Assembly (NCBI RefSeq): GCF_002220095.1
Contig: NZ_CP022372.1
Span: 124,001 to 188,000, forward strand
DNA from: Bosea sp. AS-1
GTDB lineage: Bacteria > Pseudomonadota > Alphaproteobacteria > Rhizobiales > Beijerinckiaceae
Length of the DNA stretch: 64,000 bases
Reading direction: 5' to 3'
The stretch's first letter is position 1, and each line of letters begins with the position of its first letter. Below the pieces are notes generated by a model. The model made no database searches. It was not told the origin of the DNA and saw nothing but the letters and a program-made list of their open reading frames with translations. A program made the position numbers and the translations under genes. Positions 5,250 through 9,541 of this stretch are shown here, in pieces.

Positions 5250-6251
5250 TCAGAGCCCCGGCGACAGCCCTTCCTCGACCTCGGCCGGGTCGAAGGTATA
5301 GCGCCGCGAGCAGAATTCGCAGGTGACGCCGAGCGTTCCGTCATCGGCGACCATCGCGCGACGATCCTCGGGCGAGAAGCCGCGCAGCATCGCCAGCACC
5401 CGCTCGCGCGAGCAGCGGCAGGCCTCGTGCACCGGAACGGCTTCGAAAACGCGCGCGCCGCGCTCATGGAAGAGCCGATAGAGCAGCCGCTCGCTCTCCA
5501 GCGTGGGGTCGAGCAGCTCATGGTCCTCGACCGTCTCGACCAGCGAGCGCGCCTCCGTCCAGGCGTCGTCCTCGATGCCGTCGGGATCGTTGCTGGCGAG
5601 GATCTCATGGCCTTCCGGCGCATCGCCGGGGTGGATGTCCGCCGCACGCAGGCGCTCGGGCGAATGGGGCATGAACTGGACGAGGATGCCTCCGGCGCGC
5701 CAATGCGCCCGCCCGCCGGTCGTGACCGTGCCGACAGCGAGCCGGACCCGCGTGGGGATCTGCTCCGACTGGCGGAAATATTGGTGCGCCGCCTCCTCCA
5801 GGCCCTGCCGCGTCAGCGGCACGATGCCTTGATAGCGCGTCGTCGCCGAACCCTGGTCGATCGTCATGGCAAGATGCCCCTCGCCCAGCAGATCACCGGT
5901 CGACAGCTTGTCCAGCGCCATCGCCTCGACGAGCTTGGCCTGATCGATCTGGGCGACGGCGCGATAGGTGTCGGGGGCGGTGAAGTCGACCACCATCATC
6001 GAAATGGCGCCGTCGCTCTTGGTCTGGAGCTGGAAGCGCCCTTCGAACTTCAGCGCCGTACCGAGCATGACGGCGAGCGCGCAAGCCTCGCCCACGACAC
6101 GCGAGACCGGCACCGGATAGGCGTGACGTTCGAGGATCGCGTCGATCGAGGGGCCGAGCCGAACGACCCGGCCACGCACGTCGAGATCGGGAACGGCAAA
6201 AGGCAGGACGGCGTCGTCGAGCCCTGCCACGGCGCCGGTTTCGGCGGCCAT
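5250..6251 (-). CDS. hslO: Hsp33 redox-regulated chaperone
   Basis: A cytosolic holdase activated by oxidation. The 333-residue protein ends with the zinc-binding cysteines CRC (about residues 272-274) and CEFC (about 309-312), the CxC...CxxC redox switch of the family. The core is conserved (YRAVAQIDQAKLVEAMALDK, DLLGEGHLAMTID). The frame is open to 6392, but the ATG at 6251 overlaps the argF stop as ATGA, giving coupling and the family-like N-terminus. It is the last gene of the leftward argD-argF-hslO unit. Confidence 0.95.
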   Translation of the reverse strand: MAAETGAVAGLDDAVLPFAVPDLDVRGRVVRLGPSIDAILERHAYPVPVSRVVGEACALAVMLGTALKFEGRFQLQTKSDGAISMMVVDFTAPDTYRAVAQIDQAKLVEAMALDKLSTGDLLGEGHLAMTIDQGSATTRYQGIVPLTRQGLEEAAHQYFRQSEQIPTRVRLAVGTVTTGGRAHWRAGGILVQFMPHSPERLRAADIHPGDAPEGHEILASNDPDGIEDDAWTEARSLVETVEDHELLDPTLESERLLYRLFHERGARVFEAVPVHEACRCSRERVLAMLRGFSPEDRRAMVADDGTLGVTCEFCSRRYTFDPAEVEEGLSPGL

Positions 6252-7171
6252 CAGGCCGCGACCCCGCCGAAGCACCAGGCCAGGATGCCCTTCTGTGCAT
6301 GCAGCCGGTTCTCGGCCTCGTCGAAGACGGCCGATTGCGGGCCGTCCATGATCTTGTCCGTAACCTCTTCGCCGCGGGAGGCCGGCAGGCAATGCATGAA
6401 GATCGCCTCCTTCTCGGCGCGGTCCATCAGCCTGTCATCGACCTGGTAGGGTCGCAGCAGGTTGTGGCGGGTGCCTTCCTCGTCGCCCATCGAGACCCAG
6501 CAATCGGTGATGACGCAATCGGCGCCCTCGACCGCCTCCTCGGGCCGCGTCGTCAGCTTGAGCTTGGCGCCCTGCTTCTTCGCCCAGGCAATCAGCGCCG
6601 GTGGCGGCGCCAGCTCTTCCGGGGTCGCGATCGACAATTCGAAGTCGAGCCGGCCGGCAGCGTGGACCCAGGAAGTCAGCACGTTGTTGGTATCACCCGT
6701 CCAGGCGATGCGCTTGCCCTCGATCGGCCCCTTGCGCTCCTCGAAGGTCATGACATCGGCCATCACCTGGCAGGGATGCTGGCGCTTGGTCAGGCCGTTG
6801 ATGACGGGGACCGAGGCATATTTCGCCATCTCGACCACGGCGTCGTGGTCGAGCATGCGGATCATGATCGCATCGACATAGCGCGAAAGCACGCGGGCCG
6901 TATCGGCGATGGTCTCGCGCTCGCCGAGCTCGATCTCGCGACCGGTCACCATCATCGGCGAGCCGCCGAGCTCGCGAATGCCGACATCGAAGGAGACGCG
7001 GGTGCGCAAGGAGGGCTGCTCGAAGATCATGGCGATGACCTTGCCTTCGAGCAGGCGATCCCCCGCGGCGGCCGGCGTGCGACGTCGCGCTTTCATCTCC
7101 TCGCCCGCGCGCAGGATGGCGCGCAGCTCGTTGCCGGAGAAATCGGAAAGATCGAGGAAATGGCGCGTCAC
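6251..7171 (-). CDS. argF: Ornithine carbamoyltransferase
   Basis: Joins carbamoyl phosphate and ornithine to give citrulline. The 306-residue protein carries the carbamoyl-phosphate site SLRTR (about residues 53-57, normally STRTR, here with Leu in the second position), HPCQ (about 132-135) and the ornithine-loop HCLPA (about 257-261), plus DCWVSMGDE. It lies 39 bases downstream of argD and overlaps hslO by four bases, so it is probably co-transcribed from the argD promoter. Confidence 0.95.
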
Positions 7172-7210: not shown

Positions 7211-8431
7211 TTATTCGGCGGCCGGGCGCTTCAGCGCAGCCTCGACGGCGCCGGCAGCCTTGTCGAGCCGGGAGACCGCCTCGGCGACGTCCGCCTCGGT
7301 GATGATCAGGGGCGGCAGCAGACGCACGACATTGTCCCCGGCGCCGACCACGAGCAGGCCCTGGGCGCGCGCCTCGTTGACGAAGTCGGTGTTCGGCGTG
7401 TGCAGCTTGAGGCCGAGCATCAGCCCCTCGCCGCGGATCTCCTGGATCACGTCGGGATGCTTGTCCTTGAGCTCGGCCAGCGACTGCTTCAGCCGAAGCG
7501 CGATCTGGCCGACATTCTCGATGAAGCCCGGCGCCAGCACTACGTCGAGCACGGCATTGCCGACCGCCATGGCGAGCGGGTTGCCGCCGAAGGTCGTGCC
7601 ATGGGTGCCGAGCGTCATGCCCGAAGCCGCCTCCTCGGTCGCGAGGCAGGCGCCCATCGGGAAGCCGCCGCCGATGCCCTTGGCGATCGACATGATGTCC
7701 GGCGTCACGCCGTAATGCTCATGCGCGAAGAACTTGCCGGTGCGGCCGACGCCGGTCTGGATCTCGTCGAAGACCAGCAGCAGGCCGCTCTCGTCGCAGA
7801 TCTGGCGCAGCAGCTTGAGGAAGCGCGAGGGCACCGAGCGCAGGCCGCCCTCACCCTGGATCGGCTCGATCATCAGCGCGGCGGTCTCAGGCCCGATCGC
7901 GGCGCGCAGGGCCTTCTCATCGTCGAAAGGCACCTGGTCGAAGCCGTCGACCTTGGGGCCGAAGCCGTCGATGTATTTCTGCTGGCCGCCAGCGGCGATG
8001 GTTGCCAGCGTCCGGCCGTGGAAGGCGCCCTCGAAGGTGATGATGTGGTAGCGCTCGGGATGGCCCTTCGCGGCATGGTATTTCCGCGCCATCTTGATGG
8101 CGCACTCGTTCGCCTCGGCGCCCGAATTGGTGAAGAAGACGCGCTCGGCGAAGGTCGCCTCGCAGAGGCGACGGGCGAGCCGCTCGCCTTCCGGGGCGCC
8201 GTAGAGATTCGAGGTGTGCCAGATCTTGCCGGCCTGCTCGGTCAGCGTCTTGACGAGATGCGGGTGCGCGTGGCCGAGCGCATTGACGGCGATGCCGGCG
8301 CCGAAATCGAGGTAGCGCGTGCCGTCGGCGGTGATCGCCCAGGGGCCCTCACCCCGCTCGAAGGCGACGGGAGCGCGGGCATAGGTCGGCACGAGCACGG
8401 ACTGGCTGGCGGAAACAGGAGCGGGGGCCAT
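7211..8431 (-). CDS. argD: Acetylornithine aminotransferase
   Basis: PLP-dependent class III aminotransferase of arginine (and possibly lysine) synthesis. Visible are the [16 protein letters not shown] cofactor region, [13 protein letters not shown], and the PLP lysine in [13 protein letters not shown] at about residue 250. The length (406) is normal. The ATG at 8431 is preceded by GAGGA, 11 bases away. It is first gene of the leftward argD-argF-hslO operon, with a 220-base leader that contains a promoter, a hairpin and a short Arg-rich reading frame. Confidence 0.95.
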
Positions 8432-8459
8432 GAAAGGAATATCCTCGCGAAGGGGGTGA

Positions 8460-8575
8460 CGAGTGAGACCGGATTGGCGCTGGGGTCGAGAACGCGATCC
8501 GGGTTGAAATGCTGCATCGTGCAGGCATGTTGCGACCCGGTGACGACGTTATCGTCGCACCCAGTTCCTGACCTC
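8460..8575 (-). promoter_or_regulatory. Competing inverted repeats after the Arg leader peptide
   Basis: In leftward reading, CGACG-ATAA-CGTCG is formed by the last Arg codons, the stop and the next bases. TGCGAC can also pair with GTCGCA. CCGGGT pairs with ACCCGG around an inner CTGCA-CGA-TGCAG hairpin. The first two stems exclude the third partly because they share the GTCG segment. No clear U-tract follows, so a rho-dependent or translational mechanism would be needed. Confidence 0.35.
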
Positions 8576-8596
8576 TCGTCGCGCCGTCATCCGCAT
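8549..8596 (-). CDS. Candidate Arg-rich leader peptide of the argD-argF operon
   Basis: A 15-codon frame in the argD leader encodes MRMTARREVRNWVRR, with six arginines (two as the last two codons before TAA). All are non-CGC codons (CGG, four CGA and AGG), although CGC dominates in neighbouring genes. AAGG (8605-8608) lies eight bases upstream of the ATG at 8596. An in-frame ATG at 8623 would add nine residues and two more arginines but has no Shine-Dalgarno sequence. The position, composition and codon choice are those of an amino-acid-sensing leader peptide. Conservation and expression are unknown, so this is an inference. Confidence 0.45.
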   Translation of the reverse strand: MRMTARREVRNWVRR

Positions 8597-8626
8597 CGTT
8601 CGGGCCTTGATCCGCGAAAACATAAG

Positions 8627-8646
8627 CGCCGCCCGAAAGGGCGGCG
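8627..8646 (-). promoter_or_regulatory. GC-rich hairpin at the start of the argD leader
   Basis: A perfect 8-bp stem CGCCGCCC/GGGCGGCG encloses a four-base loop. Read leftward it lies about eight bases after the predicted transcription start and is followed by CTTATGTTTTCG, a loose U-rich tail. It could be an early terminator or a 5' stabiliser. Confidence 0.45.
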
Positions 8647-8652
8647 TCACCT

Positions 8653-8661
8653 TGTGGATAA
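8653..8661 (-). promoter_or_regulatory. Perfect DnaA box
   Basis: TTATCCACA, the strong consensus DnaA site, reads leftward here. It abuts the -10 element of the predicted argD promoter and lies about 330 bases upstream of gcrA. In Caulobacter DnaA is known to activate gcrA. Confidence 0.5.
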
Positions 8662-8689
8662 ATATGCTTAAGGCCGCAGGCCCTGTCAA
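8661..8689 (-). promoter_or_regulatory. Predicted sigma-70 promoter of argD-argF-hslO
   Basis: Leftward reading gives TTGACA (8689-8684), a 17-base spacer and CATATT (8666-8661). The -35 is a perfect consensus. Transcription would start near 8654, giving a leader of about 220 bases. Confidence 0.6.
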
Positions 8690-8733
8690 TTCCATGCCGG
8701 CTTTTCTTGCCGCAACGACAGTGTTGCCGAAAA

Positions 8734-8926
8734 GATTCGCTTGACCCGCCAATCGCGAATCGTCTGGGGAAAAGCTGTTTTCAGATTCGGCGACTCTTGT
8801 CCGCGAGTCACCGCCCCTTGTATGGTCGTTTTCGTCAGATACGACATTTCGTGCGGCGTCCCCAGTCCCGTCTGTTGCGGCAGCAACGGTTTTGTCTCAG
8901 CGACAAAAGCCGGCGGTTCCGGATTC
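8734..8926. promoter_or_regulatory. Cluster of six GANTC sites upstream of gcrA
   Basis: GANTC, the target of the CcrM DNA methyltransferase, occurs at 8734, 8757, 8784, 8792 and 8805 (five within 76 bases) and again at 8922. GcrA acts with sigma-70 at promoters carrying methylated GANTC in Caulobacter, so autoregulation or methylation control is suggested. Confidence 0.6.
8874..8908 (+). promoter_or_regulatory. Two adjacent dyads in the gcrA upstream region
   Basis: GTTGC-GGCA-GCAAC (8874-8887) is followed by TTTTGTC-N5-GACAAAA (8890-8908), a perfect 7-bp inverted repeat about 80 bases before gcrA. They could be an operator or a 5' untranslated hairpin pair. Confidence 0.4.
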
Positions 8927-8989
8927 CGCCACGAAGCACCCTTAAGGCCGGCGCCGCAAGGAACCGGCCGGACAAGATAGGTGATGCGG

Positions 8990-9541
8990 ATGAACGAAGC
9001 CGGAGCATGGACGGACGAGCGCGTCGAACTGCTCAAGAAGCTCTGGAGCGATGGCCTCAGCGCCAGCCAGATCGCGGCCGAACTTGGCAACGTCACGCGC
9101 AATGCGGTGATCGGCAAGGTGCACCGGCTCGGCCTTTCGGGCCGGGCCAAGAGCGCCGCCGCCCCGGCTGCGCCGCGCAATGCCGCTCCGCGCAAGGCCC
9201 CAGCCCGCGCGCCGAGCCACCCGATGGGCAGCGCCACGACGGCGACCCGCGGCGCGCACGCCCTTGCGCCCCATTTCGCCGCCGAGGCGGAAGTGGAGAT
9301 CGAGGCCGAGCAGGCGCCACTGCCGTCCGAGGACGTGGTGATCCCGTTCTCGGAGCGCGTCACCATCATGGAGCTGCGCGAATATATGTGCCGCTGGCCG
9401 ATGGGCGATCCGACGAGCCCGGATTTCCGCTTCTGCGGCGCGCGTTCGCAGACCGGCCTGCCCTATTGCAGCTACCATTCCCGCATCGCCTACCAGCCCG
9501 CCGCGGATCGCCGACGCGACCGGAGCAAGGCGCGGGCCTGA
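8990..9541 (+). CDS. gcrA: Cell-cycle regulator GcrA
   Basis: A sigma-70-associated transcription factor that couples CcrM (GANTC) methylation to cell-cycle gene expression in alphaproteobacteria. The N-terminal helix-turn-helix (WTDERVELLKKLWSDGLSAS, ending RNAVIGKVHRLGL) is canonical. A variable Ala/Pro linker follows, and the C-terminal conserved block holds MCRWPMGDP and FRFCGA, with Cys residues. The frame opens at GTG 8981, but AGGTGA (8979-8984) is placed five bases from the ATG at 8990, giving MNEAGAWTDERV as the likely start and 183 residues. It stands alone between argD and a strong terminator, with DnaA and GANTC sites upstream. Confidence 0.95.
   Translation: MNEAGAWTDERVELLKKLWSDGLSASQIAAELGNVTRNAVIGKVHRLGLSGRAKSAAAPAAPRNAAPRKAPARAPSHPMGSATTATRGAHALAPHFAAEAEVEIEAEQAPLPSEDVVIPFSERVTIMELREYMCRWPMGDPTSPDFRFCGARSQTGLPYCSYHSRIAYQPAADRRRDRSKARA

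Follow-up and report, generated by a model that had tools for sequence, protein, structure and literature searches.

In the attenuators of the trp, his and ilv operons, a leader peptide rich in codons for the end product precedes the biosynthetic operon and is followed by stem-loops. The leader of argD in Bosea sp. AS-1 is like these in that a short open reading frame (ORF) with end-product codons lies directly upstream of the operon, with stem-loops after it. Use of the his leader as a reporter is described in the accessible part of PMC4046918.

A second system of related design is orf34 (SpeFL) of Salmonella speF which, in the part of its description available (PMC6386406), resembles the Bosea leader in that a short ORF, with Arg codons side by side, lies within a long leader, in having a hairpin just 3′ of the stop codon and in the absence of a rho-independent terminator. 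Arginine acts there through the consecutive Arg codons of orf34, termination in the leader is Rho dependent and a leader under translation is protected from Rho (PMC6386406, in part). The two leaders also differ. speF controls ornithine decarboxylase in gamma-proteobacteria, whereas the Bosea leader precedes arginine biosynthesis; SpeFL has 34 residues with an HIRRT-type core, compared with 15 residues in Bosea (PMC6386406, in part). By inspection, the HIRRT-type motif of SpeFL/DUF2618 was absent from 27 Bosea-type peptides, and the downstream gene is argD. In speF, both CGACGA and CGCCGC retained the arginine response, which indicates that CGA is not needed (PMC6386406, in part); this codon, exchangeable in speF, is never exchanged in Bosea-type leaders. 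Of SpeFL-type Rho-dependent termination, the Bosea leader shows only a rut-like composition.

Candidate cys leader peptides of Mycobacterium likewise have end-product codons near the stop and no terminator, and Rho has been proposed for them (PMC1262725, in part). They differ from the Bosea leader in concerning cysteine, in belonging to Actinobacteria and in being described, in that part of the source, as without conserved hairpins. In the alphaproteobacterium Sinorhizobium meliloti, peTrpL/rnTrpL also combines a short leader peptide, of 14 residues, with an amino-acid biosynthesis gene, but the amino acid is tryptophan and the ORF is leaderless in an attenuator RNA (PMC10117765, in part). No description of an arginine biosynthesis operon controlled by a leader peptide was found in searches of the open PMC literature, outside which most subscription journals lie. 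If the reading given below is true, the leader tells how bacteria such as this one, in whose genome no ArgR was detected, may sense arginine. Its one fixed rare codon also makes it testable whether the ribosome has been made to sense inosine decoding, rather than an amino acid or a peptide.

The locus lies in the window, the whole stretch of 64,000 nucleotides that was analyzed, and its nearest named argD relatives are Bosea loci. From the promoter to argD, a 5′ hairpin, a 15-codon ORF, two more stem-loops and a C-rich stretch follow one another (Table 1). Judged from sequence, this ORF is probably a ribosome-mediated arginyl-tRNA sensor of the attenuator type that controls argD(-argF), perhaps with Rho as the readout. 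The promoter-like site is the sole sigma-70-like match in 8400-9000, and its TTGACA is found 37–45 nt 5′ of the 5′ hairpin in all 37 Bosea-type loci. A transcription start downstream of 8549, which the original prediction had named as counting against it, is unlikely because of the position of this site.

Table 1. Positions of the argD leader elements and the adjoining genes in the window
Feature	Positions	Strand	Basis
Promoter-like site of argD, TTGACA-N17-CATATT	8661..8689	(-)	10/12 consensus matches
5′-end hairpin CGCCGCCC-TTTC-GGGCGGCG, then CTTATGTTTT; terminator-like	8627..8646	(-)	sequence scan and relatives
AAGG, weak Shine-Dalgarno of leader ORF	8605..8608	(-)	sequence; G-rich but variable in relatives
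Leader ORF, MRMTARREVRNWVRR then stop; CGA at codons 6, 7, 14, 15	8549..8596	(-)	sequence and relatives' frames
First CGA-CGA pair, codons 6-7	8576..8581	(-)	invariant, 27/27 distinct Bosea-type frames
Second CGA-CGA pair, codons 14-15, adjoins stop	8552..8557	(-)	invariant, 27/27 distinct Bosea-type frames
P2 hairpin GCGACG/CGTCGT, stop codon in loop	8543..8558	(-)	99.3% of cells paired, 25 sequences
P3/P4 stem-loop, CCGGG/CCCGG around CTGCA/TGCAG	8499..8540	(-)	two-sided changes in 6/10 pairs
C-rich, G-poor stretch, candidate Rho loading (rut) site	8447..8506	(-)	composition
AGGA, Shine-Dalgarno of argD	8442..8445	(-)	sequence; GGA invariant in 25 rows of alignment A1
argD, 406 codons	7211..8431	(-)	TIGR00707, 477 bits, cut-off 410
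argF, next gene, same strand	6251..7171	(-)	TIGR00658, ornithine carbamoyltransferase, 365 bits, cut-off 281

Read from 8596 to 8549 on the (-) strand, the codons are ATG CGG ATG ACG GCG CGA CGA GAG GTC AGG AAC TGG GTG CGA CGA TAA. The frame thus encodes 15 residues with six Arg (CGG, four CGA and AGG), which bears out the Arg-rich, rare-codon frame of the original prediction; the AAGG noted ahead of its ATG is present as well and ends 8 nt 5′ of it. Codon usage was counted in 40 coding sequences of the window, picked by a script on length and GC3 and not from annotation. CGC, said to dominate the surrounding genes, indeed accounts for 822 of their 1286 Arg codons and CGA for 39 (3%), and CGA-CGA occurs at none of their 16,039 codon pairs. 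As a separate observation, the window contains eight copies of the nonamer CGACGATRA where 2.1 would be expected, and none of 100 shuffles had as many as eight. The seven sites other than the leader all read CGACGATGA.

Conservation was followed in the window and 36 further loci (L001-L035 and L068), with the leaders excised from their TTGACA; these 37 Bosea-type loci carry 27 distinct leader frames. The alignment of relatives' argD leaders that had been suggested as a check gave a conserved Arg-rich frame in every locus: the frame is exactly 15 codons long and retains all four CGA codons in 37 of 37. The absence of such a frame from relatives, one of the outcomes that would have spoken against the prediction, therefore did not occur. 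Each of the 27 distinct frames starts with ATG and has CGA at codons 6, 7, 14 and 15, while the stop codon interchanges (TAA in 24, TAG in two and TGA in one) and the middle residues vary. The type represented by L021 and L030 reads as a single-base insertion offset by a single-base deletion, so that the frame is restored. This conservation is more than expected by chance. Among the 67 genomes of the genus, the leader was present in all 22 examined, namely the window, G081 and each of 20 additional ones.

The conservation acts on codons. Only one of the 17 Arg residues present in all 37 ArgD proteins keeps a single codon, as do nine of 163 invariant R, L, S, G, A, P, T and V residues, compared with four of four CGA positions in the leader. 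The ORF is very probably real and under codon-level selection. Such conservation of codons, not residues, fits the sensing of charged tRNA-Arg through ribosome speed. Alternatively, a ribosome holding a nascent peptide with C-terminal Arg-Arg could bind free arginine (or ornithine) and stall at the stop codon as in TnaC or SpeFL, altering the access of Rho. The C-rich stretch downstream would suit such an arrest, and CGA-CGA-stop, and with it Arg-Arg-stop, ends 64 of 66 leader-bearing loci (39 distinct sequences, duplicates between locus sets included). However, the remaining peptide varies, the codons are fixed too, with no synonym of CGA at four sites in 27 distinct frames, and the two leaders of group g17 end in Arg-Ala; arrest by the peptide is unlikely.

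The Arg anticodons among 43 tRNA hits in the genome are ACG, CCG, TCT and CCT, and TCG is absent from those hits, a list that is incomplete (it lacks tRNA-Ile, for example) and to which this absence is confined. CGA should therefore be read by the ACG tRNA. Where a TCG tRNA is lacking, CGA is decoded by the inosine of the ACG tRNA (ICG), a slow pairing. The same tRNA would serve CGC, CGT and CGA, together 995 of the 1286 Arg codons (about 77%) in the 40 coding sequences. According to the theory of selective charging, a tRNA in such heavy use could be among the first to become uncharged when starvation sets in, so that codons of the ACG tRNA would be good sensors. A more specific form of the proposal is an isoacceptor-specific sensor that, through the fixed CGA-CGA pairs, responds to nothing but how far tRNA-Arg(ICG) is charged and how it decodes by I34-A wobble, is coupled to Rho rather than to an intrinsic terminator and replaces ArgR control in ArgR-less Hyphomicrobiales; this we advance tentatively, as possible rather than probable.

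A leader frame was found in 42 of 80 named argD loci, the 36 Bosea-type ones and six divergent ones, and the scan found no such frame in the other 38. Three divergent loci (L042, L048 and L049) encode MR[AT]VRAGWRERR before the stop, and three others (L055, L062 and L071) encode MSRMGWNGTRSR[ED]RR. Two of 40 upstream regions of the family carry a leader (L089, from the same genus as the window, and L105, from g17), as does one of 60 further regions, of which 49 are from other families of the order and 11 from the same family (L181, also g17). The g17 frames, MGVCTERLERSRRWARRQNRA and MGAWTDRTERSRRCARRTARA, each contain two CGA-CGA pairs and end in Arg-Ala. The divergent relatives have other peptides and lengths, yet all end in or contain CGA-CGA, and CGA makes up 147 of 207 Arg codons in the 39 distinct leader frames. 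In a tree of ArgD and ArgF (21 rows, row L262 being ArgD alone as its argF part was not found), the leaders of g1 and g17 were not grouped, with two changes of state, and a single clade was not rejected (p-AU 0.349). The leader may have arisen by one gain with losses or by two gains. Inspected by eye, L105 and L181 both have, 3′ of the stop, a perfect complement (TCGTCGCGC) to their second stretch of CGA-CGA (GCGCGACGA), although the intervening sequence differs between the two loci.

RNA structure and base composition were evaluated in alignment A1, which holds 25 of the 37 Bosea-type leaders, chosen for diversity. P2, P3 and P4 can pair in 92.8% of cells, with 22 two-sided cells compared with 7.1 (SD 2.0) in shuffles, none of 500 of which reached 22; this count favors P3/P4, as P3/P4 was placed by scanning the same alignment. 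Slid versions of P3/P4 gave up to six pairs with two-sided changes, but at most nine such cells and at most 53% pairing. All two-sided changes fall within P3/P4. P2 (8558-8553 with 8548-8543) shows one-sided G-C/G-U changes only. The hairpin arm described earlier as formed by the last Arg codons and the stop is correct for the Arg codons, which are in the 5′ arm of P2, but the stop lies in the loop. The stem CCGGGT/ACCCGG that encloses CTGCA/TGCAG is present, with covariation in relatives, but adjoins the first hairpin in the counted structure and does not compete with it. The first CGA pair could alternatively pair with 8536-8532, in overlap with P3, in 97.6% of cells; this pairing showed no covariation and a model probability of 0 to 0.06. 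RNAalifold drew P2 together with this alternative and not P3/P4. For mutually exclusive hairpins set by ribosome position, as in trp, his and ilv, the Bosea-type leaders offer P2 and P3/P4, both conserved, and a competing pairing with that low probability.

These structures bear on the idea that the GCGACGA repeats and their complements form a structure or a protein-binding site in RNA or DNA, the reading frame being incidental. The near-complete pairing of P2, the covariation of P3/P4 and the conservation of CGACGA at the nucleotide level would all be accounted for. Stop codons interchange in place while the frame length stays constant, however, and in the divergent relatives CGA-CGA-stop is retained although the GTCGTC partner that adjoins it in Bosea is missing. 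P2 alone fails to explain the fixation of CGA for this latter reason, and because the first CGA pair lies outside P2. An element of this kind, independent of translation, appears quite unlikely.

The stability of the folded leader is unremarkable relative to shuffles (z -1.23 for 8401-8655 and 0.07 for 8401-8601), and segments after the ORF were no stabler than shuffles (mean z -0.36, 35 distinct segments). Modelled ribosomes did not open the argD Shine-Dalgarno, for which the mean unpaired value in 25 leaders was 0.34 with no ribosome, 0.22 with one at codon 5 and 0.29 with one at the end. Folding revealed no switch, and the ribosome site of argD did not change consistently. Within the window no Rfam covariance model reached its gathering score; six matches at E ≤ 10 in 8350-8750 were all far under their gathering scores and included no T-box. 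Since folding demonstrated no regulatory switch, a slow leader ORF might be thought to have a constitutive role, spacing ribosomes or protecting the RNA with no response to arginine. Against this, the Arg codons stand before an arginine operon and the rare codon is fixed in 27 of 27 distinct frames, and end-product codons before a biosynthetic operon are the usual attenuator signature of end-product sensing. A purely constitutive role is very unlikely.

Unlike in the trp, his and ilv attenuators, no intrinsic terminator was found between the leader ORF and argD in the window; the sole terminator-like site on this strand in 8400-9000 precedes the ORF. Three of 37 Bosea-type loci have five consecutive T less than or equal to 110 nt downstream of the stop. 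The conservation of frame, stop and CGA codons supports the earlier suggestion that arginine or charged tRNA-Arg may be sensed by stalling, but a classical trp/his-type attenuator is not established because there is neither an intrinsic terminator nor a consistent change where ribosomes bind before argD. The candidate rut site is 60 nt long, ends 15 nt 5′ of argD and has an excess of C over G of 0.30. This is the highest value among 40 segments upstream of start codons in the window (next 0.183, mean 0.02), and it is reached by 10 of 12,788 60-nt segments on both strands. In the 25 aligned Bosea-type leaders, the mean C content is 0.447 and the mean G content 0.196, with C exceeding G in all 25; ten divergent leaders are less C-biased (20–29 C and 13–20 G of 60). 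Rho loading sites are cytidine-rich RNA with little structure (PMC6386406, in part). The composition, though weak evidence, makes Rho the likeliest readout, with the chances for and against it about equal.

The mechanism proposed here builds on the conserved frame, stop, CGA codons and P3/P4, and on the C-rich stretch. From these we infer that the argD leader is translated into a leader peptide that acts as a sensor of arginine supply, the ribosomes reading one CGA-CGA pair in mid-frame and the other at the stop. A shortage of charged tRNA-Arg(ACG, read as ICG) would make ribosomes slow or stall at CGA-CGA; with ample arginine, they would reach the stop and leave. The position of the ribosome would then set which of P2 and P3/P4 form and whether the C-rich stretch ahead of argD lies open. 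In the likeliest version, an open stretch would allow Rho to terminate transcription ahead of argD-argF under ample arginine, and stalling would relieve this termination.

Control by ArgR was also considered. PF01316 had no match in the genome; control matches were obtained in nine of 14 genomes, eight of them over the cut-off, Caulobacter not being among them. Among other arg genes, the scan covered argG, argH, carA and argJ and found no CGACGA within 350 nt before the first three or within 250 nt before argJ. Candidates for a second leader copy in the same genome were rejected. Seven matches to the leader pattern with at most three mismatches were obtained (control, one), the exact one being argD itself. 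A match with two mismatches (G000:C3:3566635-3566682) is a TTG-started, Arg-rich frame of 15 codons ending in CGA CGA TGA; it was taken for chance because it lies antisense within a long open frame (L278). Of the other five, L279 has no start codon and L280 has an in-frame stop, and, judged from the printed match only, two lack a terminal stop and one is inside argD.

The 5′-end hairpin is present in 37 of 37 Bosea-type loci and is widespread among argD leaders elsewhere in the order. Many argD promoters of the order are followed directly by a GC-rich hairpin, often GCCGCC..GGCGGC, whose tail is rich in T, also where the Arg-CGA ORF is absent. It was found 26–62 nt after TTGAC in 73 of 100 upstream regions (L089-L128 and L132-L191; the window equivalent is 8646-8617 on the (-) strand) compared with 174 of 2000 single anchors placed at random in these regions, a comparison that is somewhat flattering because a region may hold several TTGAC. 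This hairpin resembles a terminator close to the promoter or a structure protecting the 5′ end. In L038 and L117, probably one genome and a single case, a frame encoding MCRLIWAAPLFYRRR runs through the 5′ hairpin before argD and ends in CGC CGA CGT TAA, that is, in Arg codons and a stop. On the other side of the intergenic region, gcrA (PF07750, 192 bits; 8981-9541, (+) strand) is divergent from argD, and GAGTC/GACTC and TTTTCCCC motifs recur on the gcrA side in many relatives, as seen by eye.
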